Source: an uncultured Verrucomicrobiota bacterium (GTDB lineage Bacteria > Verrucomicrobiota > Verrucomicrobiia > Limisphaerales > UBA1100). Taken from it: a DNA stretch of 48,062 bases. This document shows, piece by piece, positions 8,655 through 42,698 of the stretch (position 1 is its first letter; the number at the start of each line of letters is the position of its first letter). The DNA lies in NCBI GenBank assembly GCA_902551155.1, contig CACDBG010000008.1, positions 1 to 48,062 on the forward strand, read 5' to 3'. The notes beneath the pieces were generated by a model. That model was not told the origin of the DNA. It made no database searches and was given only the letters and a program-made list of their open reading frames with translations. The position numbers and the translations under genes are program-made.

Positions 8655-9260
8655 TTACTCTGCTGAAAAAGCTTCACTGAGCTCAGGCTCAGTCCAAGGC
8701 TGTGACTGGCCCTGTTCTTGAATCTTTGCACTAACTTTTGAAACTTCTTCGCCAGTTATTCTACTGGCACTATTGCCCCACTCTTGCCGAATGTACGTGA
8801 GAACTTCTGCAATTTGCACGTCACTTAAGGTGCTCTCCCACGCCGGCATTGCACCATTATAAGTTTTGCCAAGAACTTCAATTGGACCTCCCAGTCCTTT
8901 TAATAAAATAGCGCTTAATCTCTCTGAGTTCTCTAAAACATAAGGCGAATTAGCCAACGGAGGATTTACTCCAGAGCCCCCTCCATTTGCTTGGTGACAA
9001 GCCATACAGTTTTTTGCGTAAAGCGCTTTACCCCGCATTACAACCAGCTGCTCTTCAGATGGCGCCAGAGAGGCTACTTCGATAGGACTGCCAAAAGGAA
9101 AATGTACATTGCTGGCAAAGTTGGCATTTAGTTCATCAACCTTTGTACACCCAATGTACCCTAGCAGCGCAAGAACCACCGCAACACCCACAGGCATTTG
9201 GGCATTTCCTGAGACTGGCTCATCATGCTCATTCATGCTCAATTTGGGTTCTTCACTCAT
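8655..9260 (-). CDS. Membrane-anchored monohaem cytochrome c
   Basis: A 201-residue protein with an N-terminal hydrophobic anchor (VGVAVVLALLGYIG, followed by C) and one c-type haem site, CMACH. A later GAMPAW motif supplies the likely axial methionine. It is the last gene of the respiratory operon, 21 bases after the CcoO-like gene. The LLKGLGGPIEVLGKTYNG stretch resembles the GLGGPIEKVKFD stretch of the other operon cytochrome at 11924-12649, so the two may be related by duplication. Its likely role is electron transfer in the periplasm between ACIII and a terminal acceptor. The LGYIGC sequence could be a lipobox, which would make it a lipoprotein. Confidence 0.88.
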   Translation of the reverse strand: MSEEPKLSMNEHDEPVSGNAQMPVGVAVVLALLGYIGCTKVDELNANFASNVHFPFGSPIEVASLAPSEEQLVVMRGKALYAKNCMACHQANGGGSGVNPPLANSPYVLENSERLSAILLKGLGGPIEVLGKTYNGAMPAWESTLSDVQIAEVLTYIRQEWGNSASRITGEEVSKVSAKIQEQGQSQPWTEPELSEAFSAE

Positions 9261-9281: not shown

Positions 9282-10454
9282 TCACTTTGCTGATGCTTGT
9301 TTCCTTCTTACCAACGGAGCTTCCTGCAGCGGTTTATCGTTTCGCAAACTTTTCATGTATTCTAATAAGGCCTTTGCTTTTGCTGTTGGCGTAATCGCCA
9401 CTCTGTATGAATCTTCTTTTTCAACTTCGATCTCTCCAGACTGCACGCGTTCATTCTCTCCCAGTTTCCTTTCCTTAAATAAATATCGAAATGGTGGCAT
9501 ATGTGAACTTTTCCCGTTCCATTGTGGGTCATAGAGGTGTTTATAAATATTATTATCCTCTATTACTTGCTCCTCTGGATTATTTGCCACCTCTTCGCCA
9601 TTCTTTTTATCGAATAAAATGTTACGGCCTATATTACTTAAATCCGGCCCAAAACGCCTCACTCCTACCATGACATGTTCATCGAAAAGAAAATCTCGTG
9701 AAACACTTTGACGCCCGGCACCCTTCTGTACATCAGGCCATTCCTTTGCCACCGGCTGCAATTTATATTGGGCACCCGCCTTATCCTTTAATTTTTGAAT
9801 CGTTCCCTCAATATCTTTCCAGCTCTCGCTCCCATCAGTAACTGGAAAACTCGCTTCTTTAATCAATCGAGCCTGATTAGCATTCATTTCTGCCGGTAAG
9901 CCCAACTGAGCAAGCAAATCCTTTTCAAAACTCACCCCAGATACTCCATAGGCTTTTAAATTAACGGCCTCTTCTGCTCCTCGCGAAATATCATTTGATA
10001 AGCCAATTGCCGAAATCAAAGTTGCATTGGCATCCTGAATTTTTTTCTCGTCCCGCTCTTCAGGTTTCTTGTCCTGTTCCGCCTTTAAAGCATCCGCTGC
10101 CTTGGCCACTGCCTTGTAGGAGTAGGCTTTCTGAAAAACAGATTTTTCTGAATATTTGCCGTGCCGGTCAACTGCCTCTGCATTGAGTTGCCGATCATCG
10201 CCCAGCTGAGTAATTTGGATTTCATAACCAAAGGTCCCGCCAATAGCAGCACGTGTATGACAATAATAACAGCCATTCTCTCGATAAACCTGCTCGCCTT
10301 GTTTAGCCAGCCCAACACGTGGTCTCAGGGGATCGCCCGCCCCCAATTCAGGAGACAAATTATTGGCCTGAGAAGCCGGGCCATAAACCATCCCCCACCA
10401 AGAAAGACTAAGGGCAAAAAGCACGCCTAGAAAAATCCAAGGTGATTTATTCAC
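9282..10454 (-). CDS. CcoO-like cytochrome c subunit with a large internal insertion
   Basis: A 390-residue protein resembling cbb3 oxidase subunit II (CcoO). It has an N-terminal anchor, then QVYRENGCYYCHT with the haem c site C62-x2-C65-H66, then RRFGPDLSNIGRN near residue 267, and SHMPPF carrying the probable axial methionine. Ordinary CcoO proteins are about 200-250 residues, with roughly 50 residues between the haem motif and the GPDL motif. Here there are about 200, mostly charged and helical (many K, E, A), so about 150 residues are inserted. It starts with GTG at 10454 and overlaps the CcoN-like stop by four bases. It should bind one haem c and transfer electrons on the periplasmic side. 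Confidence 0.8.
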   Translation of the reverse strand: MNKSPWIFLGVLFALSLSWWGMVYGPASQANNLSPELGAGDPLRPRVGLAKQGEQVYRENGCYYCHTRAAIGGTFGYEIQITQLGDDRQLNAEAVDRHGKYSEKSVFQKAYSYKAVAKAADALKAEQDKKPEERDEKKIQDANATLISAIGLSNDISRGAEEAVNLKAYGVSGVSFEKDLLAQLGLPAEMNANQARLIKEASFPVTDGSESWKDIEGTIQKLKDKAGAQYKLQPVAKEWPDVQKGAGRQSVSRDFLFDEHVMVGVRRFGPDLSNIGRNILFDKKNGEEVANNPEEQVIEDNNIYKHLYDPQWNGKSSHMPPFRYLFKERKLGENERVQSGEIEVEKEDSYRVAITPTAKAKALLEYMKSLRNDKPLQEAPLVRRKQASAK

Positions 10455-11911
10455 TTAGCACCTCCCTCGGATTCAGTTGTACGACATTGGCGAATCAAAG
10501 ACATCGGGTTGCATTCACCACAGCAATTACGAAACAACAAACACGCTATACTGCACAGAAAGATCAAACTTCCTGCCAAGAAGGCAAGTTCTCCCAAGAA
10601 TGCAATCCTCATGGGCATGAGCGCCTTCTTGGCCAGTACATCAGCACCAACACTTTCTTGCAATGCATATCCGTGCCCGTAAGAAAAACCCATTCCAGCC
10701 AATGCCACAACAGCTACTCCAAAACCTGTTAAGTAAAACACCCACTTATAAGTCCCGGAACAGGCCCAGTCGACTTCATTGCCAAACAACCGAGGCGCCA
10801 CATAATAAATTGCGCCAAACATTGCCATAGCAAAAAAGCCCCAAGCAAAGACATGGCGCATCGCTGTGGCAGCATAAGTAAATTGAAGTAGGTTATTCCA
10901 TTCTACAATAGAGTTACCGAAAGTATAAAATGCCACCAATGCCCAAGAGGCAAATGATACTCCCATAAATTTCAGTGTTAAATCCCTTGATCCAATCAGG
11001 GGCACTCCTTTCGCTGTCTGGAGAAGATTCCAACAGACTGCGAGAAGAACAAATATGTACAACATCGAAGCTAACTGACTGAGTTTGATTGACCAAACCG
11101 GGATAGGCGATCCACTATTCAAATTCACCCAACCTCCCAAAATTAAAAGCATCCAGAAACCAAATCCTGCCCATTGACGACTGTGAAGTTCGCGCTGGAT
11201 GATTTTAGGTATAAAGTAAATCAAGGCTGCTAATCCCATGCTTCCTAACCAGACTTGCTGCAAACTGGTTGCCGCCCAGTGCGCTGCAGGAATCTGAGCT
11301 GCGCCTCGAACAGGATTTTCCACCAAAAGCCAATGTGCTGTGCCCAGAATCCAAGGAAATGCCACCAAAGACGCAATCAGATACCAAGAACTTGGGTAAA
11401 GCTGCTTATGGCGACGGGAGAAATAGGTAAGAACCGCGCTAAAAGCGATTAAAGCATGACCTACAAAGAGCACCCTTCCGGCGTAAGCCGGCAACTCATA
11501 CCCGGGTACACCCGGTTGGTCGCCCATGGTAATTCCTACCATCGCAGCAGTTACCCCAACATTCCATAAAACCGCACCTGCTACCACAAAACCCGGACGA
11601 GCCAACTTCATTCCACGTAACCGACTCAACATCCAAAGAGTCAAGCCGAGGCCTGCATTGCCGCCAAAACCAAATAGAAACGCTACCCAAGCATTTGCCT
11701 CCAACCGCCCATAGGTCAAATACGGAAAATCAGGCAGAAATCCTGGCATGTGCATGCTAAGTGAACCCAAAACACCAACTGCAGAAGCCTGTACAACCCA
11801 AATAGCTGCACTGAAGAAAAGAAACAAAACAGGCAATCGACAAGAAGCATTAATTGCCTCTGGCTTGGCCTCAGGTGCCGGATTGGCAGCGCTATCTGTA
11901 TTTTCGCTCAT
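10451..11911 (-). CDS. CcoN-like membrane protein lacking most haem-copper ligands
   Basis: A 486-residue, roughly 12-helix protein that aligns almost without gaps with cbb3 oxidase subunit I (CcoN), sharing YGRL..FGFGG, YFIPK..R, GFW and FGAIYYVAPRLFG. At the catalytic positions the ligands are missing: the low-spin haem histidine after GRL is A74, the first CuB histidine is T215, the CuB pair is N265-S266, the cross-linked tyrosine is G259, and the haem b3 histidine is M351. Only the last histidine, H353, remains. I compared it with the CcoN sequence from memory, so the exact pairing needs an alignment. The usual call would be cytochrome c oxidase subunit I, but oxygen reduction looks impossible. 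A structural or quinone-related role in a complex with ACIII is the likely alternative. Confidence 0.75.
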   Translation of the reverse strand: MSENTDSAANPAPEAKPEAINASCRLPVLFLFFSAAIWVVQASAVGVLGSLSMHMPGFLPDFPYLTYGRLEANAWVAFLFGFGGNAGLGLTLWMLSRLRGMKLARPGFVVAGAVLWNVGVTAAMVGITMGDQPGVPGYELPAYAGRVLFVGHALIAFSAVLTYFSRRHKQLYPSSWYLIASLVAFPWILGTAHWLLVENPVRGAAQIPAAHWAATSLQQVWLGSMGLAALIYFIPKIIQRELHSRQWAGFGFWMLLILGGWVNLNSGSPIPVWSIKLSQLASMLYIFVLLAVCWNLLQTAKGVPLIGSRDLTLKFMGVSFASWALVAFYTFGNSIVEWNNLLQFTYAATAMRHVFAWGFFAMAMFGAIYYVAPRLFGNEVDWACSGTYKWVFYLTGFGVAVVALAGMGFSYGHGYALQESVGADVLAKKALMPMRIAFLGELAFLAGSLIFLCSIACLLFRNCCGECNPMSLIRQCRTTESEGGAK

Positions 11912-11923
11912 CTACTATTTGTT

Positions 11924-12649
11924 CTATTCCGCTTTACTTAAGCTTTTTACGTAAGCCAACAACGCCTTAAGCTCTTCATCAGTTATAGGGACAGGAGGAG
12001 GCATGGGCGCCAAAGCTCCCTTGACCACCTTATCCATTGGTTTACGAACTGATTCAGTAAAATAAGCCGCATCAAATTTTACTTTTTCTATCGGCCCTCC
12101 GAGGCCTATATGAACTTCACGTTCTTTACCCCAAAATTCACCTATAAAGTTTGGTGCTTTCAAAGCTAAACCGGCTGGAGCCGGCACAGCCGGATCCGCT
12201 TGATGGCAAGTGAAACAAATCTTTGTCTGGAATAAAGTCTTACCTTGGGCGATGAGAGCCGGATCCTCTAAATCCTCTTCATTCCCAGCTACGGCCAGTC
12301 CTGCCGCTGACATGCTCCTAGCAACGAGCTCCTTATGTAGCGATCCTGAATTTTCATTCATTTTAAAGACCACCTCCGTCATGGCGTCGGCAACAGGTAT
12401 CCGATAAACTTTTCGGTCAGCATCCACCACTCCATAAGTGCTTAACGCCTCCTCATCAGCCTTCATTAACTCGGCCTGCTTTTCAGACCGTGCTTCATCT
12501 CGATCATTAGTCAGCGACTGAGACTGAGTATCTGCACCATACTTAGTCACAATCCACACCGCCAACACCAAGGTCAAGATCAGAGCAAATAATTCGTGAG
12601 CCGCCCAGCTAGGCAGTAATGAATCAGACTTTTTGATATCTTCGCTCAT
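11924..12649 (-). CDS. Membrane-anchored monohaem cytochrome c
   Basis: A 241-residue protein with an N-terminal membrane helix (LFALILTLVLAVWIVTKYG) and a single haem c site, CFTCH, in the C-terminal half. APMPPPVP supplies the probable axial methionine. Between the two lies a charged linker of about 90 residues. It overlaps the actF stop by one base (TAATG) and precedes the CcoN-like gene by 12 bases, so it is translationally coupled to ACIII. In position it could be the electron carrier that leaves ACIII. It is not one of the six standard Act subunits and I give it no name. Confidence 0.85.
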   Translation of the reverse strand: MSEDIKKSDSLLPSWAAHELFALILTLVLAVWIVTKYGADTQSQSLTNDRDEARSEKQAELMKADEEALSTYGVVDADRKVYRIPVADAMTEVVFKMNENSGSLHKELVARSMSAAGLAVAGNEEDLEDPALIAQGKTLFQTKICFTCHQADPAVPAPAGLALKAPNFIGEFWGKEREVHIGLGGPIEKVKFDAAYFTESVRKPMDKVVKGALAPMPPPVPITDEELKALLAYVKSLSKAE

Positions 12650-13932
12650 TAATGACGCTCCAAAGCTTCTCCCATTCTCGGATCCTTCATGAGTATCACT
12701 GGGTGATTGAATAAATCACGCATGAAAATCCAAATCAATGAACCTCCCAAAAGTAATAATGCACCCAAATCAGCCAACACGAGAGATGGCCCATCCTCGT
12801 GTATCTCAGGCATAACATTAAAATACATATCCATGTAATGCATTAGGAGAACCCAGATAAAAACAGGAACCATAACCTTATTAGTTAATTTAACATCAAT
12901 ACGAAGCAGGACCAAAAATGGGATCAAAAAGTGGCCAATAATTAACGCCCAACTCACATAGGCCCAAGAACCTTGCTCTCTCAAAACATACCAAAAAGTC
13001 TCCTCAGGTATGGCTGCATTCCAGATAAGAAAATACTGGGAGAAATGAATATAGGAGTAAAAAACAGTGAACGCCAAAAGCATAGTTCCCAAATTATAAA
13101 ACTGTAGGTTATTTATTTGGGGCACAATATTTTTAGCCTTTAAGATACGACCAATAATCCAGACTGCAGATATGCTCATCCACAAACTTCCGGCAAAATA
13201 ATAGACGCCATACATCGTGCTAAAGAACTGGTGCTGAATACTCTTCATCCAGAGGATCGCCCCCAAGGTTAAGGTAAACGCGAAAAGCAAAATTCCATAG
13301 GCAGAGTGAATACGCATCATACGTGTACACATTACCTGTTGTTGGTCCTGCTCAAACGGCAATTGCTGAGCTTTTTTGTAAAAGCCGACAATTAAGTGCT
13401 CAGGAAACATTAGTTTCCCCTTAAAATCAGAGGTGCCAGACTTGTCCTGCTGCAAACTCCAATAACGCAGGCGATGAGTTAACCAGCCCCACGCAAAAAA
13501 CAGGATAACTGATAACGCATACCAGGTAGGCTTATTAAATAAAGCCATTTTCACATGCAGCGCGTGATCGGAGTGCGGATCTTCTATTCGCATCCATGGG
13601 TAAATATATTCAGGACCAAGAAAACCTACCGGAATAAATGCCAGCCCCAACCATGGAAAAAGCAGGCAAGCCAAATGCTCGCAATAACGCCGGATAGGAG
13701 ATGACCAGCCCGCATCAAAAAGATGGTGCACTAAAACCAAGAAGAGTGACCCCAGTCCCAAACTCAGGCAGAACATAAAAGCAGTAAGGTAAGAGAAGGC
13801 AAACTGCTCTTTGTCCTGCACATAACCGTAAATACAAAGCAGCAAACCGATAACTACTGCGATCTGGGGAATGCTACGCCAATTAGTCGTCTCCTCAGAT
13901 TCTTGAGTTGTAGTGGTCACTATTTCGCTCAT
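12649..13932 (-). CDS. actF: ACIII subunit ActF, quinol-oxidising membrane protein
   Basis: A 427-residue polytopic protein with about ten membrane helices, of the NrfD-like type found as ActF in alternative complex III. Signature parts are the early YLTAFMFCLSLGLGSLFLVLVHHL helices, FNKPTWYALSVILFFAWGW, and the late HFLIPFLVLLRIDVK and MHYMDMYFNVMPE segments. ActF pairs with ActC and is thought to provide a proton path and possibly a second quinone site. It lies one base after the actE stop and overlaps the next cytochrome gene by one base. It fits in order, length and hydrophobicity. Confidence 0.9.
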   Translation of the reverse strand: MSEIVTTTTQESEETTNWRSIPQIAVVIGLLLCIYGYVQDKEQFAFSYLTAFMFCLSLGLGSLFLVLVHHLFDAGWSSPIRRYCEHLACLLFPWLGLAFIPVGFLGPEYIYPWMRIEDPHSDHALHVKMALFNKPTWYALSVILFFAWGWLTHRLRYWSLQQDKSGTSDFKGKLMFPEHLIVGFYKKAQQLPFEQDQQQVMCTRMMRIHSAYGILLFAFTLTLGAILWMKSIQHQFFSTMYGVYYFAGSLWMSISAVWIIGRILKAKNIVPQINNLQFYNLGTMLLAFTVFYSYIHFSQYFLIWNAAIPEETFWYVLREQGSWAYVSWALIIGHFLIPFLVLLRIDVKLTNKVMVPVFIWVLLMHYMDMYFNVMPEIHEDGPSLVLADLGALLLLGGSLIWIFMRDLFNHPVILMKDPRMGEALERH

Positions 13933-13933
13933 A

Positions 13934-14614
13934 TCAGTTCTTCTGCTCCTGATCAGAATTCTTGGCCTCAGGCTTAGTTTTTACATGAAACCTATCTGGA
14001 ACTTCCCCTTCCTTACCCAATCTACTCAACTGAAGAGCTCGGAGGTAGGCCACAATCGCCCAGCGATCTGTAACATCAAGAGTATTTGCATAACCCATCA
14101 TCAAACCTTTTCCTTTGGTAATAACACGGTATAAGTGACCGTCAGTGCTTTTCACTACATCAGGTTCATGCAGGTTTCTAATTCCCCCAAAACCAAAATA
14201 ACCAACGATACCCTTGCCATCGCCTTGACCACCGTGACAAGGGACACAGGAAATATTATACTTCTCACGACCACGCTCCATGAGCTGACTGGTGACTGGA
14301 ATTGGGATAACTGCTACAGTGTTTGTTCCACTTTCAAAGCCACTGACAACCGTGTGTGTTTTCTCAAAAGGATATACCTCCTTACCTTCATTCAAAGTTA
14401 TAGGCTGACTACGAGCAATTGTCCCCTTAACCAACGGTTGAGAGCTCATGCCATTCTTAAAGAAACTATTAGGCTCCATCGGGCGAAGCTTGGGTTGCCG
14501 ATCCATATCCGGGAAGATTTCCAAGGGAGGCTTACGAGATATATCACCTCGGAAACCAGCCAAGCTCACTACCATAAACACTAACATAGCAATACCGATC
14601 AGAACGTATCTCAT
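13934..14614 (-). CDS. actE: ACIII subunit ActE, monohaem cytochrome c
   Basis: A 226-residue protein with a hydrophobic N-terminal anchor (VLIGIAMLVFMVVSLAG) and one c-type haem site, CVPCH, in the SCVPCHGGQGDGKG context typical of ActE. The downstream KGLMMGYAN methionines supply an axial ligand. It receives electrons from the iron-sulfur and haem chain of ActB/ActA and passes them to a soluble or bound cytochrome. Its ATG overlaps the actD stop by four bases (ATGA). There is no clear lipobox cysteine, unlike some ACIII haem subunits that are lipoproteins. Confidence 0.9.
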   Translation of the reverse strand: MRYVLIGIAMLVFMVVSLAGFRGDISRKPPLEIFPDMDRQPKLRPMEPNSFFKNGMSSQPLVKGTIARSQPITLNEGKEVYPFEKTHTVVSGFESGTNTVAVIPIPVTSQLMERGREKYNISCVPCHGGQGDGKGIVGYFGFGGIRNLHEPDVVKSTDGHLYRVITKGKGLMMGYANTLDVTDRWAIVAYLRALQLSRLGKEGEVPDRFHVKTKPEAKNSDQEQKN

Positions 14615-15148
14615 TGAGCGTCCTCCACCATTTCTATGTGTTGTGTCCCGGTGCTCTCCAAAAGAGCACGCGTGGTCTGTTCATCGTAGCGTTCATCCTC
14701 ACACTCAATTACCACATAAAACTTATCGTCAGTCACATCAGCAAACCGCGCATTGGCTAGGAGCGGATGATGATGTCTAGGTAAACGGTTCAGTATAAAC
14801 ATCCCACCTAACGACCCAAAGGCACTCAGCAAAATTGTTAATTCATAAGCTACCGGAAAAGCAAAAAACCCACTAAACAAAGGCTTACCTCCAACAACAA
14901 TATCGTAGTCAAATTTGTTCATGAAATAAATCATGACCATACCCGTTGTAAAACCAGTCACCCCCCCCAAAAAAAGTAAACCAACCCACCTTTGCATTAT
15001 CCAACCCCATCACCTCATCCATACCGTGAATCGGAAATGGAGAATGCACATCCCACTTCTGGTAACCTTCACCATGGACTTTCTTGGCAGCAGCCATGGT
15101 CTCAGCCGGAGTTTCATACTCCGCCATGATGGCAAAAGGCTTACTCAT
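14611..15148 (-). pseudogene. actD: ACIII subunit ActD (DUF3341), frameshifted at a G8 run
   Basis: Two overlapping frames together make one ActD. The first, from the ATG at 15148, gives [20 protein letters not shown] to VGWFTFFGG. The second continues with VTGFTTGMVMIYFMNKFDYD, then GGKPLFSGFFAFPVAYELTIL and a C-terminal cytoplasmic domain. The switch falls in a run of seven T and eight G (minus strand). Removing one G restores a 178-residue protein, the normal ActD length, with its two membrane helices. ActD is a small membrane subunit without cofactors. All other act genes are intact and coupled to it by overlaps at both ends, so the gene is probably functional in the cell or has only just been lost. 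A sequencing error in the homopolymer is the simplest explanation. Confidence 0.88.
14961..14975. repeat. Homopolymer pair C8-A7 inside actD
   Basis: Plus-strand C8 (14961-14968) followed at once by A7 (14969-14975). This is the point at which the actD reading frame changes. Long G/C runs of this kind are hot spots both for replication slippage (phase variation) and for sequencing error. Confidence 0.9.
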
Positions 15149-16620
15149 CAGTGTGCACCTCCTTCAACCTTATCTGCCCCACCCTCTTTAGTATGCGGGT
15201 CAGCCTGAGCCGTTACGCTTTTCACCTCAAAAATACAAATAGTCGGCAGATACCTGACAAATAATAGAAATAATACCATGAACAGACCAAAAGTACCTAC
15301 AAAAGTGAGGATATCCACCTGTGTTGGACTATAATACCCCCAACTGGAGGGTAAATAATCACGATGCAGTGAAGTCACAACGATCACAAAGCGCTCAAAC
15401 CACATTCCAATATTCACAAATATAGAAACAATAAAAATAAACCAAGGGGTTGTACGACACCACTTAAACCAAAAGAACTGGGGACTAATCACATTGCAGC
15501 TAATCATGATCCAGTAACTCCACCAATAAGGACCAAAAGCACGGTTTTTAAATGCGTATAGCTCGTAGGGATTACCGCCGTACCAAGCTATAAAGAACTC
15601 CATCCCATAAGCATATCCAACTATAGAACCCGTCGCCAGTATCACTTTACACATCAATTCCAAATGCCTGATTGTTATGATATCCTCTAAATTGAAAATC
15701 GTTCGCATCGGGATCATCAAAGTGAGAACCATTCCGAATCCGGAGAAGATTGCCCCAGCTACAAAATAAGGGGGGAAAATGGTCGTATGCCAACCTGGCA
15801 ATTGAGAAACCGCAAAATCGAATGAAACAATTGAGTGCACCGATAACACCAAAGGCGTACTTAAACCAGCCAAGAGAAGATAAGCCTTCTCGTAATTACG
15901 CCAGTGGCGGTTACTACCAATCCATCCCATTGAGAATAGTCCATATAGATATTGCTTAATCCTGTTAACCAGTTTTTCAAAACCGGTTGTACACTTGCTG
16001 GCATTTTTACGCAGGCGATCACGAATCGTGGCCAAATCAGGAATTAACCCCATGTACCAGAACAAGAGCGATACCGTAAAATATGTAGATACCGCAAAGA
16101 CGTCCCACAAGAGTGGCGATCGAAATTGTGGCCAAATTGCATTTGCGTTGGGAATTGGCAGAAGCCAGTAAGCGAACCAGACACGACCTACGTGGATTCC
16201 TGGAAAAATACCCGCACATATAACAGCAAAAATAGTCATTGCCTCGGCGGTTCGATTAATGGAAGTCCTCCACTTTTGTCTCAATAGAAATAGAACTGCT
16301 GAAATTAACGTTCCCGCATGCCCGATACCAATCCAGAAGACAAAGTTTACAATTGCCCATCCCCAAGCCACGGGATGGTTTAAGCCCCAGACACCTACCC
16401 CTGTTAGGATTAAGTAACCAATGTAGGTGAAGCACATCATCGTCACCAAAAAACTTATAGCAAAGGCAACATTCCACCAACGAGGCATTTTGCCCTCCAG
16501 AATCCCAGCAACCTGATTAGTAATCCAACCGAAAGATCGATTATTCGAAACCAGAGGAACACGGACCAACTCCTTGGGAGTATGAGTTTCCACCTTAGGT
16601 TGAACCGTGGATTCACTCAC
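15148..16620 (-). CDS. actC: ACIII subunit ActC, NrfD-like quinol-oxidising membrane protein
   Basis: A 490-residue NrfD/PsrC-family protein with about ten membrane helices, which forms the main menaquinol-binding site of alternative complex III. It contains [37 protein letters not shown], a [15 protein letters not shown] helix and [19 protein letters not shown], all typical of ActC. The start is GTG at 16620 and overlaps the actB stop by one base. Its own stop overlaps the actD start (TGATG). In the membrane it passes electrons from quinol to the 3Fe-4S cluster of ActB. Confidence 0.95.
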
Positions 16621-19600
16621 TAATGGTTATCCTCCTTATGAGAATGGCCATGCCCTTTGTGTGCACCGTGATCATCACCATGCCCTCCCTCCGTAGCTTT
16701 ATACTCCTTAGTGCTGAAGGGTTTCTCGTAACTGTCGGGCATCTTAGGGTTTGGATTGCGCACCTTGGCCAAATAAGTGGTACGCGCACCATTATCCAGA
16801 AAATCAAGCGTCTCGTAGGTGCGAGGATTATTCTTTTCCTCCACCACCCTTGAATCCTTATCCAACAAATTGCCGAAGGTAATGGCATCTGCAGAACATG
16901 CTGACTGACAGGCTGTCTTAAGATCAGCATCCTTGATCATAACATCGCCCCCGGTCCCCGCCTTAACCTTTTTATTAATCTTAGCGGCTTGAATCCTAGA
17001 ACTACAGTAATCACACTTCTCCATTACCCCCCGCATACGCACTGAAACCTGAGGATTCTTTGCAAGCTCGAGTAAATCCCATTCATCCTCCTTCTTGCTT
17101 GGCTTTTCACGATCTGACAGCCAATCCAAGAACAAAGCCGGTTTAGTTAATGGTGATTCATAAAGGTTTTCTAGGGGACGCTTATTGTAATCAAAATAAT
17201 TGAAACGCCTAACTTTCCATGCACAGTTATTAGAACAATACCGAGTACCCACACACCGGTTGTAGGCCATAACATTTAAACCCTCATCATCGTGAACCGT
17301 TGCATTCACCGGGCAAACACTCTCGCAAGGTGCATTTTCACAGTGCACACAGCTCATTGGCATGTTAACTACCTGAGGATCATCAATCCATTCCTCAGCA
17401 TGCTGCACATCGTCACCATTTTGGCCTTGATCCTTTATTTTTTTAATCAAAGGCAACCCGTCAGAATCCTTCTCTTTGGGGTTATGGTTCCGGCCAGTGT
17501 AATAACGATCGATCCTTAACCAATGCATCTCACGCCCGTTGGCAACCTGCTCTTTCCCTACAATCGGAATATTATTCTCACTTTGACATGCAATAACACA
17601 GTCATTACATCCCATGCAGGAATTAAGATCAATTGACATGCCCCACTGATTAACATCACTCTTCAAAGTCGGACGTTCTTGGTAAGGATGTTCGTATATT
17701 TCCCCTTCATTACGGGCATGCGAACCCAGACCTAGATTGTCAGGAAAGAAATGCTTTTCATTATATTCCTCCTTACCTAACTCCTTAGCACGCTTCTTCT
17801 CAGACTTTCTAAACTCCTCAAGAGTTGCCTCCCTGACAATGGGACGGCCCTCCATAGACCAATGCTCCTGAGTACTGGACAACGGATAATCTTCGCCGGT
17901 ATTTTCGATTTCTCCGAAATCCAAATTCCTTCCAGAAGATCTTAGTTTATAAAAATTGAAACCACCAACGTCTATGACCTTAGCCCCAAAGAAATTGTTG
18001 TTTATGAGGGGCCTTTTCTCATATTCAAAGTTTGCTATTCTCAAGTCACCTTCCCGCCCATAACCCAAAGGCAGGGAAACGGTATTATCGGACATCCCCG
18101 GCTGAACCCATACAGGTGCTTCTATAGATTTACCTTGAACAGTAAGTTTTGCCTTTTTGCCATGCTCAAGTCCCAGCTTTTCAGCTGTCTTACGGCTTAC
18201 GCTCATTACATTATCCCACGTGATCTTGGTAATGGGATCGGGCACCTCCTGACACCAACCATTGTTAGCAAAACGACCATCATCCACACTGTAATCGCGG
18301 GTAAACACAACCTCGACACTCTTTGAAGGAATCGTACTATAAGCAATACTTGGAATTTCTTGAGAAAGTTCTAAATCAGTAACAGGAGTCGACTTGCTGC
18401 CCTCCTGATAGCCCTGGTGTAGATAATGCTCCCAACTATCACCACTGAAAGTATCTTTTACTATATCGTAAGCTGACTGGTAAGTATCTGGGTTTACCGA
18501 AGCATAAATCGACAGGACCTCTAACTCACTCATCGCATCGAAAAGTGGTGCGATTAATGGCTGAATGGAAACAATAGTTCCATCATTGGCTCGAGCATCG
18601 CCCCAACTTTCCAAATAATGCGCCAAAGGAGCATTTATACAGAGGCGGGTGGAAGGTTTACCAAGGGACGAATGAGATTCATCCTTCTTAAAATATGTCA
18701 GCCTAAACTCCGTCTTATCAACTATTGCCTTGCTGCCGATATCAACCCCACCATCATAAATAGGATTGCAGCCAAGATTCACTACTCGATCATACTTACC
18801 AAGATCTTCTGACAAATCCTTAAGCGTCCCAAATTGCTCTGTAGCTACAGGTATGAACTCAACAGTATTTCCGTTATTACCCAATATACCGTTAATGTGG
18901 TGTACCAATATGTGGACCTCCTCCGGCTGGCGATAGCCGGCCACTACCAGACCCTTACCTTTGTTTGCCTCGAAATCTTCCAGACATGCATCAATCCAAT
19001 GTTTTTGCTCTTGAGTAAGGTCCTGAATTAACTTTTGAGAATTGGCATCGGACAAAACCCCAAGCTTACTAGCAATATAAACAGCAACAGCCCCTATTCT
19101 GGATGCATTGGCTCGCAAACGATGATCGGCATTGGCACCGGTTTGGGTAAGCAATCCCTCCACCGAATAAAGACGGTTCATTGAATCATCAGCACTTGCC
19201 AACTTGCGATTTTTCGTAAAATCACAAGTATATAGACCTGAATCTTCCTCCGTCCCCATGAAATCACAATCCAAGGATAAAATGACTTCGGCTTTTTCAA
19301 ATTTCCAAACAGGGGTGATGGATTGTTCAAAAGCTTTGGATGCCGCTCTAGCATGAATACCGAAATCGATTGCTTCATGAACATAAAACTCCACCCTGTC
19401 ACCCATCCGGTCCTTGATCAGCCCAATCATTCGGTCGCGGGAAGGCGAGTTGGCCGACGGCATTAGAAAGGCCGTTCTACCCTCACTTTGAGCTAAACTT
19501 TTTAACTGTTCAACCGCATCAGCTTTGGACATCTCCTTACCGTTCTTAAAATAAGTCCGAGCACGATCCGGGTCGTACAAATTCAATATAGAAGCATAAG

Positions 19601-20042
19601 CAAAACCATTAGCTGCTCCCTTACTTGCGGGACAATCAGCATTACCGGAAACTTTCGTGGGCCTGCCTTCGTTAGACTCTGCCAAAAGCGGGATCGCTCC
19701 GGTTCGTGTCGGCATAGCAGTAGCAAAATACATCGGCACACCATGAACGTATTCCTGACCGTGTATTCCCTCACTAGTTTCAGCACCAAAGGGAACAATA
19801 AGCTCTTCAGGACGGCGACAACCCACTCCAAGCATTCCTGCTCCTGCCAATCCCGCCGACGCCCCCATAAGTTTGAGAAAATCTCGACGTGAAAAATCTT
19901 CAGGCAACTCCGATGCCCCCTCCGGAAACTCCCTATCAGACCATTCAGGATGCTCAACTTCACCCATGGACTCGCCAATGCTACGCCAATAACGCGATTC
20001 AACTGCGTTTCCAACCTGACCTGTTTTCGAATTCATCTTCAT
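16620..20042 (-). CDS. actB: ACIII subunit ActB, fused molybdopterin-fold and iron-sulfur protein
   Basis: A 1140-residue protein. It begins with a long N-terminal extension and then [14 protein letters not shown], a Tat-type signal of the extended kind seen in ACIII ActB. Residues from about 75 to 780 have the molybdopterin-oxidoreductase fold, which in ActB is known not to hold the cofactor. From about residue 800 a ferredoxin-like part carries four cysteine groups ([39 protein letters not shown] with CQSAC), enough for three 4Fe-4S clusters and one 3Fe-4S cluster. A histidine-rich tail ends the protein. It links the quinol site in ActC to the haems of ActA. It begins four bases after the actA stop. 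Confidence 0.95.
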
Positions 20043-20046
20043 GGGT

Positions 20047-20700
20047 TTAACGGTGGCAAGCTGAACAGTTTTGACTGGAGCGAATCTTCATTTTATCCAC
20101 TAGTGCCTGCCCTTCACGATCAGCATCCCATTCGGCCGACGGTTCCCAATTTAAATTATAAACCTCACTTTGAGGCCTGACATTCTCATGCGGATTGCGA
20201 TGACATTCGAGGCAGAAAGCCATACTCAAGGACTTCGAGTGCTTAACCTCATCCATCTCATTGACCTTGCCATGGCATTTCACACAGGAAACGCCTCGGT
20301 TCACATGAACAGCGTGGTTGAAATACACATAGTCCGGCGTCTTGTGAATTTGCACCCAAGGTACTGGCGTATTTTCCTTAAAACTTTTCCGGATGGGTTC
20401 CAAACGTGGATCTTCAGCCAACACCATTGAGTGACATTTCATACACGTCTCTGCAGAAGGGATATTGGAGTACCAGGACTTGTCCACGTCATTGTGACAG
20501 TAACGACAATCGATACCCATCTGACCCGAATGAATCTCATGGGAAAATGAAACCGGTTGAATAGGTTGATACCCTACCCGTGTGTATTTTGGAGTAAAAT
20601 AATAGGTAACTCCTGCGACAACACAGGCACCAGCCACCAACACACCCACCGTCAGGATCAAAGGTAAGCGATTGGTCCATTTAGGAAAAATATTAGACAT
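20047..20700 (-). CDS. actA: ACIII subunit ActA, pentahaem cytochrome c
   Basis: A 217-residue protein with an N-terminal membrane helix and five c-type haem sites in order: CRYCH, CMKCH, CVKCH, CLECH and CSACH. Five is the count expected for ActA. It anchors in the cytoplasmic membrane with the haems in the periplasm and takes electrons from ActB. It is the first gene of the operon. A CRP-type inverted repeat lies about 70 bases upstream of its ATG, and a weak promoter-like pair (TTGCAC, 16 bases, TAGGAT) falls between that repeat and the gene. Confidence 0.95.
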   Translation of the reverse strand: MSNIFPKWTNRLPLILTVGVLVAGACVVAGVTYYFTPKYTRVGYQPIQPVSFSHEIHSGQMGIDCRYCHNDVDKSWYSNIPSAETCMKCHSMVLAEDPRLEPIRKSFKENTPVPWVQIHKTPDYVYFNHAVHVNRGVSCVKCHGKVNEMDEVKHSKSLSMAFCLECHRNPHENVRPQSEVYNLNWEPSAEWDADREGQALVDKMKIRSSQNCSACHR

Positions 20701-39614: not shown

Positions 39615-42600
39615 CTACTCGGGTGAGTTATTTTTGAGCCAAACTTGGTAACGCTTCTGCACAAGATTATTAAAATCGTTCTCGGTAAAATCTAGGTCTA
39701 TTGCTTCCCAGATCCTCGCTATTTTATCAGCACTCCCCGTCATCACACGCTTGCCATCAGGGGAAAAGGCAACGGAGTTAACATTGTCGGTATGGCCCCT
39801 AAGAGTTAGCAGTTCCTTACCCGTGTCTACATCCCAAATCTTCGCTGTTTTGTCGGCACTCCCCGTCACCAGACGCTTGCCGTCGGGAGAAAAGGCGACG
39901 GAGAAAACCATTGGTGAATGAGCCATACCCTTTGGAGTATGCAATTCACCTGTCTCTGCATTCCAGATTCTTGCTCTTCCATCAGCACATCCTGTTACCA
40001 AAAGCTTTCCATCGGGGGAAAAAGCGACGGAGGAAACAATAGGCCTTAAATGGCCCACGAGGGTTAATAGTTCTTTTCCATTTTCTGTATTCCAGATCTT
40101 CGCTGAGTCTTTGACGAGCGGCCTAAGGCGCCCACTTTTGTCCCGACGACCCCTCGCAAAGCCGCGGCTTGCCGTCACCACACGCTTGCCATCAAATGAA
40201 CAGGCAACGGAATAAATAGGATTATTACTTTTACCCCCGGCGACCCCTAGAGTCAGCATCTCCCTGCCCATAAGCTTGTCATTGCCACTGGCGGGATCCC
40301 AAATCTTTGCTGAGCCGTCCCAGCTCCCGGTTATCACATGCTTCCCATCGGATGACCAGGCAACTGAGCTAACTGCACTGGTATGGCCTTTGAGGGTCTG
40401 TAGAACGCTTAAGTCAGACGACAACGAAATCTTCGCTGTTTTGTCAGCGCTCCCCGTCATCACGAACCTGCCATCAGGTGAAAAGGCAACGGAGTAAACT
40501 CTGTCGGTGTGGCTTCTGATGGTCATTTGTTCCTTACCGCTGTCCGCATCCCATATCTTCGCTGTTTTGTCCCAACTCCCTGTCATCACACGCTTGCCAT
40601 CGAATGACCAAGCAACTGAAGAAATCTCGCTTGTATGGCCCTCGAGGAGTTTTAGTCGAGAATCACTGAGTGCATCCCAGATCATTGCTGTGCTGTCGTG
40701 GCTCCCCGTAACTACACGCTTGCCATCGGGGGAAAAGGCGACGGAGGTGATTGGATGGACGTGGCTTTGGAAGGTTTGCAGCTCCCTGCCACTGTCTACA
40801 TCCCAGATCTTCGCTGTTTTGTCAGCACTCCCCGTAACTACACGCTTGCTATCGGATGAACAAGCAACGGATGAAACCTCTCCGGCATGGCTCAAGGTAC
40901 GTAATTTCTCACCCGTCTTTGCATCCCATATCTTCGCTGTTCTGTCCTTGCTTCCGGTTATCACATACTTGCCATCGGATGACCAGGCAACGGAGCTAAC
41001 TCCATCGGTATGACCTTTGAGGGTCCGTGGTATGCTTAAGCCTAGCGACATGGAAATTTTTGCTGTTTTGTCAGCACTCCCCGTCACCACGAACCTGCCA
41101 TCGGGAGAAAAGGCAACGGAGCTAATTGCACTGGTATGGCTTCTGATAGTCATTTGTTCCTTGCCGCTGTCTGCATCCCATATCTTCGCTGTTTTGTCGG
41201 CGCTCCCCGTTACCACACGCTTGCCATCAGGTGAAAAGGCAACGGAACTAACCCAATCACTATGGCTCTTCAGGAGGTGTAATTCCTTACCACTGTCTGC
41301 ATCCCATATCTTCGCCGTCTTATCCCTGCTACCCGTTACCACTCGTTTGCCATCGGGTGAAAAGGCAACGGATTGAACTATACCTTCTCGTAAGTCATGC
41401 TTGAGGGTATGTAATTCCTCACCTGTCGCTGCGTTCCATATCTTCGCTGTTTTGTCCCAACTTCCTGTCACCACATGCTTGCCATCGGAAGAAAAGGCGA
41501 CGGAGCTAATATTTCTTTGGTCCAATGTACCCCAATTTTTGGTATGGCCCTTGAAGATTAGCAGCAGCAAGTCCGAATGACATAATTTTACTAGATGACC
41601 CCACTCCCAACCTCGAAGCTTTATTGGAAAATTTTGTTCGTCCCATAGCAGGCTTTTAGCCGAAACATAATTTCCACTATCAATTGCTAATCGTACTCGA
41701 GCAAAGGCGTTGACATAATTTTCCTGTTGGGTTTTTTTGAGGTTGGCTTCAGCCTCCCTCTCGTTCACTTCGGCAATCCCCTTTTGCTTAAGTGCTTCTT
41801 TTTCATTCTTTTCAGCAATCCCTTTTTGTTTAACGGCTTCTTTTCGCTGTTGGACCGCCTCATTACGCTGGGTCCATGCCCAGATAGCCAGACCTCCCAT
41901 TACCAACGCTAGTGCCCCCGATATTCCGCTCAACACCATCATCCGTCTTTGCCGCCTTACAGCATCCCGCTGCTTCAAGTCATCAAATCCCACCCCCAAC
42001 AACCCTGCCACCAACTTCAATAAGGCATTGGCTTTCCCATCTTTTCCTTTCCGTGCATCCGCTGCAATCGGTTCAGTCCGCTCCTCTGAAAGCTCTCCAT
42101 CCTCTCCCAGTTCATACTTCACCGCCTCAGGGAAACATTCCTCCAAACCCATCTCCGGCTTATCAGCCCCGTAAGGTTCCCCATCGACTATCAGACACAA
42201 TATCCGGTCCGACTTGCCCAACCTCTTGAATTGCTTGATCTCCTCATTCACCCACTGGCTCTTGGCTGAGCGAGGAGAACAGATCACCACCAGATGACTG
42301 GAGCTTTTCAAGGCGTTGTCGATCACCATTCCCAACTCGGTGGCCGTTGGGAGTTCTTCCCGGTCTCTAAATACCGGGAACAAACGTTTGGGTACCTCCC
42401 CCTGACTGGTCTTCCTGCCAATCAATCCTTTCGGGATAGAATAGGTTTCCAGAGATTTATGCAGCCAGTCTCCCCACTTCTTGTCCTGATGGGAGTAGCT
42501 GATGAAGGCCTTGTACTTGAACTCTTCTGAAGTGGGTTCTGCAGGCAGTATCTCGCTTAGAGGTGTCCAGTTCTCCAGCCCTTCATGATATGCCAGTTCC

Positions 42601-42698
42601 TGGCCGGTCAGCTCCCCTTTCCTTACCAGATCCTGAACCTGATCCACACTGTAGGGACCCACAGTATCTCCGTCATCACGATGGACATGGATTTGCAT
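39615..42698 (-). CDS. GYF-TIR-transmembrane-WD40 protein, 14 blades
   Basis: A 1027-residue single protein. Residues 1-50 look like a GYF_2 domain (GPYSVDQVQDLVRKGELTGQ). Residues about 60-195 are a TIR domain: YKAFISYSHQDKKWGDWLHK, a later VFRDREELP, and SQWVNEE at 148-153, where a glutamate sits where TIR NAD-cleaving enzymes have the catalytic one. A membrane helix (about 254-275) follows, then a charged coiled-coil stretch to about 330. From about 385 to 1000 there are 14 WD40 repeats, enough for two seven-bladed propellers, before a C-terminal helix. The layout suggests a TIR effector fused to a WD40 sensor. TIR-WD40 proteins of this kind are thought to act in bacterial defence or stress signalling. 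The ATG at 42698 has no strong ribosome-binding site. Confidence 0.85.
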   Translation of the reverse strand: MQIHVHRDDGDTVGPYSVDQVQDLVRKGELTGQELAYHEGLENWTPLSEILPAEPTSEEFKYKAFISYSHQDKKWGDWLHKSLETYSIPKGLIGRKTSQGEVPKRLFPVFRDREELPTATELGMVIDNALKSSSHLVVICSPRSAKSQWVNEEIKQFKRLGKSDRILCLIVDGEPYGADKPEMGLEECFPEAVKYELGEDGELSEERTEPIAADARKGKDGKANALLKLVAGLLGVGFDDLKQRDAVRRQRRMMVLSGISGALALVMGGLAIWAWTQRNEAVQQRKEAVKQKGIAEKNEKEALKQKGIAEVNEREAEANLKKTQQENYVNAFARVRLAIDSGNYVSAKSLLWDEQNFPIKLRGWEWGHLVKLCHSDLLLLIFKGHTKNWGTLDQRNISSVAFSSDGKHVVTGSWDKTAKIWNAATGEELHTLKHDLREGIVQSVAFSPDGKRVVTGSRDKTAKIWDADSGKELHLLKSHSDWVSSVAFSPDGKRVVTGSADKTAKIWDADSGKEQMTIRSHTSAISSVAFSPDGRFVVTGSADKTAKISMSLGLSIPRTLKGHTDGVSSVAWSSDGKYVITGSKDRTAKIWDAKTGEKLRTLSHAGEVSSVACSSDSKRVVTGSADKTAKIWDVDSGRELQTFQSHVHPITSVAFSPDGKRVVTGSHDSTAMIWDALSDSRLKLLEGHTSEISSVAWSFDGKRVMTGSWDKTAKIWDADSGKEQMTIRSHTDRVYSVAFSPDGRFVMTGSADKTAKISLSSDLSVLQTLKGHTSAVSSVAWSSDGKHVITGSWDGSAKIWDPASGNDKLMGREMLTLGVAGGKSNNPIYSVACSFDGKRVVTASRGFARGRRDKSGRLRPLVKDSAKIWNTENGKELLTLVGHLRPIVSSVAFSPDGKLLVTGCADGRARIWNAETGELHTPKGMAHSPMVFSVAFSPDGKRLVTGSADKTAKIWDVDTGKELLTLRGHTDNVNSVAFSPDGKRVMTGSADKIARIWEAIDLDFTENDFNNLVQKRYQVWLKNNSPE
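39690..41545. repeat. Tandem WD40-coding repeats, about 126 bases per unit
   Basis: Fourteen copies of a unit of about 126 bases coding SVAFSPDGKRVVTGSADKTA and variants. Copies 4 and 9 stand out because both lack the usual WD and read KTAKIS. The copies around 41141 and 40514 are near-identical and 627 bases apart, pointing to a block duplication of five units. The repeats code for protein blades and are not CRISPR repeats. Confidence 0.85.

Follow-up and report, generated by a model that had tools for sequence, protein, structure and literature searches.

A cbb3-type subunit I homolog without haem-copper ligands is part of the alternative complex III operon in most of the Verrucomicrobiia

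The window, which here means the whole 48,062-nucleotide stretch of verrucomicrobial DNA that was analysed, encodes a CcoN-like protein, a relative of subunit I, the catalytic core of haem-copper oxidases (HCO), within an alternative complex III (ACIII) operon. At the conserved ligand positions its sequence gives good support for a loss of catalysis: the protein would hold neither CuB nor haem b3 and would not reduce oxygen, as the original prediction had held. Judged by the homologs compared here, the ligand loss extends far beyond one genome, and the degenerate form appears in most of the class Verrucomicrobiia, its acid-loving methanotrophs included. We consider it probable that this protein serves as a cofactor-free scaffold for the c-haem output arm of ACIII, through which electrons would pass to another oxidase.

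Gene cluster in the window

The CcoN-like gene is the eighth in a co-directional cluster of ten, in the order ActA-B-C-D-E-F, 241-aa cytochrome c, CcoN-like, CcoO-like, CcoP-like, and the complete actABCDEF series that marks an alternative complex III cluster runs in order from 20700 to 12649 on the minus strand. The features are as follows.

20047..20700, minus strand: ActA, pentahaem cytochrome c with five CxxCH motifs
16620..20042, minus strand: ActB, Fe-S/molybdopterin-like protein (Pfam)
15148..16620, minus strand: ActC, NrfD-like protein (Pfam)
14611..15130, minus strand: ActD, PF11821 matched in two frames, the frame being broken near 14961-14968
13934..14614, minus strand: ActE, monohaem cytochrome c with one CxxCH
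12649..13932, minus strand: ActF, assigned by position within the conserved cluster and by its homologs at other loci, without a Pfam match of its own
11924..12649, minus strand: membrane-anchored cytochrome c, 241 aa
10451..11911, minus strand: CcoN-like pseudo-oxidase subunit I, 486 aa, with A74, T215, N265, S266, M351 and H353 at the ligand positions and G259 at the cross-linked Tyr
9282..10454, minus strand: CcoO/FixO-like monohaem cytochrome c, 390 aa, with CYYCH at residue 62 and a conserved Met319 (Pfam FixO, E 1.4e-9)
8655..9260, minus strand: CcoP-like monohaem cytochrome c, 201 aa, with CxxCH at residue 85 and an invariant Met138

The CcoO-like protein thus corresponds to the monohaem CcoO partner of C-family oxygen reductases, and the CcoP-like protein, with its single CxxCH, does not correspond to their dihaem CcoP. 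The slot preceding ccoN holds the 241-aa cytochrome c in the window's family, sometimes followed by a second one, and a single-TM protein of about 125 aa without haem in other families, an apparent gain of a c-haem in the window's family. Elsewhere in the window (39615-42698) a 1027-aa protein combines an N-terminal TIR-like segment, recognised by eye, with 13 WD40 repeats.

Ligand positions of the CcoN-like protein

The CcoN-like reading frame (10451-11911, minus strand) has an ATG start, contains no stop codon and is full length. The protein matches the HCO subunit I profile (Pfam COX1, PF00115) with 73.6 bits against a cut-off of 34.8, and the solved structures most closely related to it by sequence are cbb3 CcoN chains (phmmer E 2e-10). 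Its match to TIGR00780 (ccoN), the closest NCBI model, reaches 48.6 bits against a cut-off of 583, which is a weak test, as intact members of the same operon slot miss the cut-off too (239.5). The expectation that the protein would be annotated as oxidase subunit I therefore holds as far as matches to both models go, and fails at the TIGR00780 cut-off. An AlphaFold model built from an alignment of 12 close relatives was of low confidence (pLDDT 60.6, pTM 0.70). In both structure comparisons, performed using Foldseek and VIA-align, cbb3 subunits I ranked first against this model, with a Foldseek TM of 0.70 and, for a model with a pLDDT of just 60.6, a VIA-align Z of 34.4 over 426 residues at 3.6 Å.

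When the protein was aligned to CcoN of Pseudomonas stutzeri, the reference positions H60/H207/Y251/H257/H258/H345/H347 corresponded to A74/T215/G259/N265/S266/M351/H353, exactly the residues originally predicted. The alignment around the active site, which had been described as free of gaps, contains a 2-residue deletion directly after N265-S266. Of the six histidines by which a C-family (cbb3) oxygen reductase is recognised only H353 is left, and the cross-linked Tyr of helix VII, a further mark of that family, is replaced by G259 in the window and is present in 0% of 76 degenerate members. At the position of H353, several congeneric species (L005, L006, L007, L008 and L009) have Q, so that this histidine, although the sole one remaining in the window protein, is not a maintained ligand, and the protein has no remaining site for haem or copper. 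H353 was accordingly rejected as a functional ligand.

Distribution, linkage to ACIII and number of losses

A CcoN-like homolog was present in 52 of 58 relatives, and the named records of such homologs were mostly Verrucomicrobiota MAGs. The operon order ActABCDEF, small TM or cytochrome c protein, CcoN-like, CcoO-like, CcoP-like was the same in more than 12 families of the order and in twenty further loci of the class, finished genomes among them. For the co-occurrence analysis 289 genomes spread evenly over the phylum were used and the ActD and CcoN-like tables were compared; of the 65 genomes of the class in which ActD was matched strongly, 64 also contain the CcoN-like gene, G065 being the exception. 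The proposed coupling to ACIII is thereby borne out as operon linkage. The search for further genomes with the ACIII and CcoN-like pair, which had been suggested as a check, uncovered a family that spans the class and includes intact sisters at this operon position. One genome of the window's genus (G001) also has a second, divergent cluster of ACIII and pseudo-CcoN (L077, on C432).

Within the order, ligands were lost in 50 of the 53 homologs checked and all seven positions were kept in L045, L049 and L071; in the wider class sample they were lost in 37 and all kept in 21 of the 58 homologs checked. Altogether 24 checked homologs from the ACIII slot read HHYHHHH, with every ligand kept, and those of their clusters that were retrieved whole proved to be the same ACIII operon; these sister proteins are presumably active as oxidases. 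The seven ligand and Tyr positions were invariant in the 24 intact slot homologs and in 16 canonical ones. Among 76 degenerate proteins the ancestral residue was kept in 10% of cases at these seven positions versus 56% at 144 further columns with conserved residues in the intact clade, a difference which argues that the ligand loss is not due to chance. Structural residues (G54, G67, W24, W102, W204 and P265 in P. stutzeri numbering) were found in 99-100% of the degenerate proteins. Clade-specific conserved residues include P186-W187, P141 and W382 of the window protein. The substitution pattern at the sequence level reads as release from cofactor binding and not from folding.

For the phylogenetic analysis a tree of 57 proteins was constructed with the ligand columns removed. 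The degenerate L086 grouped inside a well-supported intact clade and a single degenerate clade was rejected by the AU test (p 0.0038); one ancestral loss was therefore discarded and at least two losses are needed. When L086 was set aside, the remaining degenerate sequences could form one group, with weak support (70/90). Going by the tree, more than two losses are likely, and since several degenerate branches are long the count beyond two is left as a lower bound.

Partner cytochromes and putative function

The CxxCH motif was intact in 42/42 CcoO-like and 42/42 CcoP-like sequences, and the likely axial Met was kept in 95% of the former (Met319) and 100% of the latter (Met138), so that loss of the oxidase core has left the c-haem chain in place. 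The genome of the window encodes a canonical A-type COX1 beside ctaA/ctaB on another contig (C2), and an A-type COX1 was found in most genomes carrying the degenerate gene. In L176-L179, L186, L190 and L191, all degenerate, and in the intact L182 it lies directly downstream of the CcoP-like gene. The presence of this oxidase in most degenerate genomes, in some directly after the CcoP-like gene, suggests an electron bridge to it.

The ancestor would have been a C-family (cbb3-like) HCO subunit I of an active oxidase encoded with ACIII, as may still be the case in some lineages. Its catalytic site would then have decayed in the lineage of the window and at least once more independently, with the membrane fold retained. 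The retained job would most likely be structural, the pseudo-CcoN anchoring the CcoO-like and CcoP-like cytochromes beside ACIII, and electrons could run from menaquinol through ACIII (ActA/ActE haems) and the CcoO/CcoP-like haems c to a separate A-type (aa3) oxidase, with the last transfer being either direct or via a soluble cytochrome c. From the ligand loss, purifying selection, conserved operon, partner haem-c sites and the separate A-type oxidase of most genomes, all read from the sequences, we infer the physical complex as well as the direction and destination of electron flow. Several observations weigh against the scaffold: the A-type oxidase of the window's genome sits on a different contig; in G034 (L076), which is degenerate and 95% complete, the degenerate gene was the only profile match to COX1; some members may carry one haem (see below); and the structure model is of low confidence. 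A putative structural partnership with ACIII, one of two roles originally envisaged, is the best-supported reading. The stronger proposal, that a cofactor-free HCO subunit I has been recruited repeatedly across the class as a fixed part of ACIII, a dead oxidase that holds c-haems as a bridge to aa3, seems to us evenly poised between right and wrong.

If the protein were purely an assembly or structural subunit, stabilising ACIII or filling the vacated oxidase site while the CcoO/CcoP-like cytochromes acted independently, the retention of structural and loss of catalytic residues would be expected, as would the strict linkage with ACIII. CcoN is, however, the anchor of CcoO and CcoP in known cbb3 oxidases, and here the CcoO-like and CcoP-like genes follow the CcoN-like gene in identical order in every annotated cluster, with perfect haem-c sites, which makes such a restricted role unlikely.

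Alternative cofactors, selection and artefacts

The 85 full-length degenerate proteins retained few of the six histidines (none in 34, one in 45, two in 5, three in 1) and displayed 71 different residue patterns at the ligand positions, which points to drift rather than to a new site. No invariant His was found in the degenerate family, and none of its His, Met or Cys columns, which were searched for replacement ligands, was universal; a new ligand set was therefore rejected. A few His columns outside the ligand set show moderate conservation (61% and 70%). Just two degenerate members, L085 (1435-2934) and L092 (1270-2778), keep the pair of histidines for low-spin haem b, and in them the haem b3/CuB ligands are all gone; by their residues these possibly represent an intermediate state with one haem still carried. 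These two proteins, the few His columns and H353 of the window speak for a subunit that still binds haem(s) or another cofactor via different residues, with an unusual redox or gas-sensing function. Given the variability of H353 in the genus, the lack of a conserved His and the many ligand patterns, we regard this as improbable. The quinone role raised in the original prediction found no backing either: nothing tested points there and the degenerate family has no conserved His.

The dN/dS of the CcoN-like gene was 0.103 against L033 and 0.066 against L043, the two nearest relatives, both values falling inside the spread seen for the rest of the operon, and the frame was open in nearly all species sampled, with one stop noted (G298). 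A decaying cbb3 oxidase pseudogene in the course of being lost would explain the missing catalytic site and the long branches of the degenerate lineages. It is a very remote prospect given the open frames, dN/dS values of 0.07-0.10, retained structural residues and a gene kept in 64/65 ACIII genomes, and a pseudogene was rejected on these grounds; the view that the full-length, in-frame protein is kept for another use is upheld. That the ligand loss stems from misalignment, assembly error or a chimeric MAG is next to inconceivable. The window does come from a MAG that is fragmentary and 50% complete, and relative to L033, a near relative, its actD has an additional base in a TTTTTTTGGGGGGGG run at 14961-14968, which puts the ActD halves in different frames and is probably a homopolymer error of the assembly. 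The same loss is, however, present in independent records and finished genomes, and phmmer and two MAFFT alignments concur on the ligand columns save for gap placement at S266, so that a sequencing or MAG artefact was rejected.

Methanotrophs and implications

The methanotroph genomes considered were five with pmoA, tied to the organisms through gene content. Their COX1 proteins are, to judge by sequence motifs, of A-type, B-type-like and NorB-like kinds. Beside these there is a single CcoN-like protein, a degenerate one that adjoins ACIII; no intact C-type gene was found in these five. In all four of their clusters that were read whole an A-type COX1 follows the degenerate cluster. One of the pmoA-bearing genomes, G129, has a nos operon, for nitrous oxide reductase, between actF and the pseudo-ccoN module (L177 10478-17045). 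This arrangement, a nos operon within the ACIII cluster, is known from Methylacidiphilum caldifontis IT6, where the neighboring gene is named a cbb3-type oxidase (PMC11102522).

That Opitutaceae and methanotrophs have ACIII next to a C-type oxidase was known already (PMC8498564), terminal-oxidase inventories of verrucomicrobial methanotrophs include a cbb3 oxidase (PMC8498564, PMC10205796), and a link has been drawn between the ACIII-adjacent cbb3 oxidase and the high affinity of Methylacidiphilum for O2 (PMC6688271). In the open-access papers searched, neither an earlier report of the ligand loss nor one of cofactor-free reuse of an HCO superfamily subunit I was found. The pmoA-bearing genomes examined carry the degenerate version only, which has a bearing on the published physiology of Methylacidiphilum (O2 affinity via cbb3, PMC6688271), and claims of microaerobic respiration for Verrucomicrobiota that are based on gene names need the same ligand check. 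If the class-wide bridge to aa3 is real, it follows that verrucomicrobial methanotrophs do not have the O2-reducing cbb3 oxidase ascribed to them. The intact and dead versions in one slot form a natural experiment on what the HCO fold does beyond catalysis, which also bears on how ACIII passes electrons on.

Comparison with known systems

With the CcoN of cbb3 oxidases (3mk7, 8smr, 9g6b) the window protein shares the 12-helix HCO fold (Z 34), sequence relation and CcoO/CcoP-type neighbors. Unlike CcoN it lacks the residues for haem b, haem b3, CuB and the cross-linked Tyr, save the non-conserved H353, its CcoP-like partner has one haem and not two, and its gene lies inside the ACIII operon. 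The ACIII-adjacent C-type oxidase of the literature (PMC8498564; PMC6688271; PMC11102522) occupies the same operon slot, in which 24 checked members keep all ligands; it is treated there as a working cbb3, whereas the five pmoA-bearing genomes contain the degenerate form only. Nitric oxide reductase NorB has the same superfamily fold as the window model (Z 30-32) but retains its metal-binding histidines, which the window protein does not. In Flavobacterium johnsoniae and Rhodothermus marinus ACIII is associated with an oxidase in an ACIII-(c)aa3 supercomplex (PMC8552683, PMC5928083), in which electrons exit ACIII via c-type haems to aa3, a route similar to the one proposed here. The partner in those organisms is an active A-type oxidase that is directly bound, whereas in the window a dead C-type subunit and two extra monohaem cytochromes are interposed at the level of the operon.
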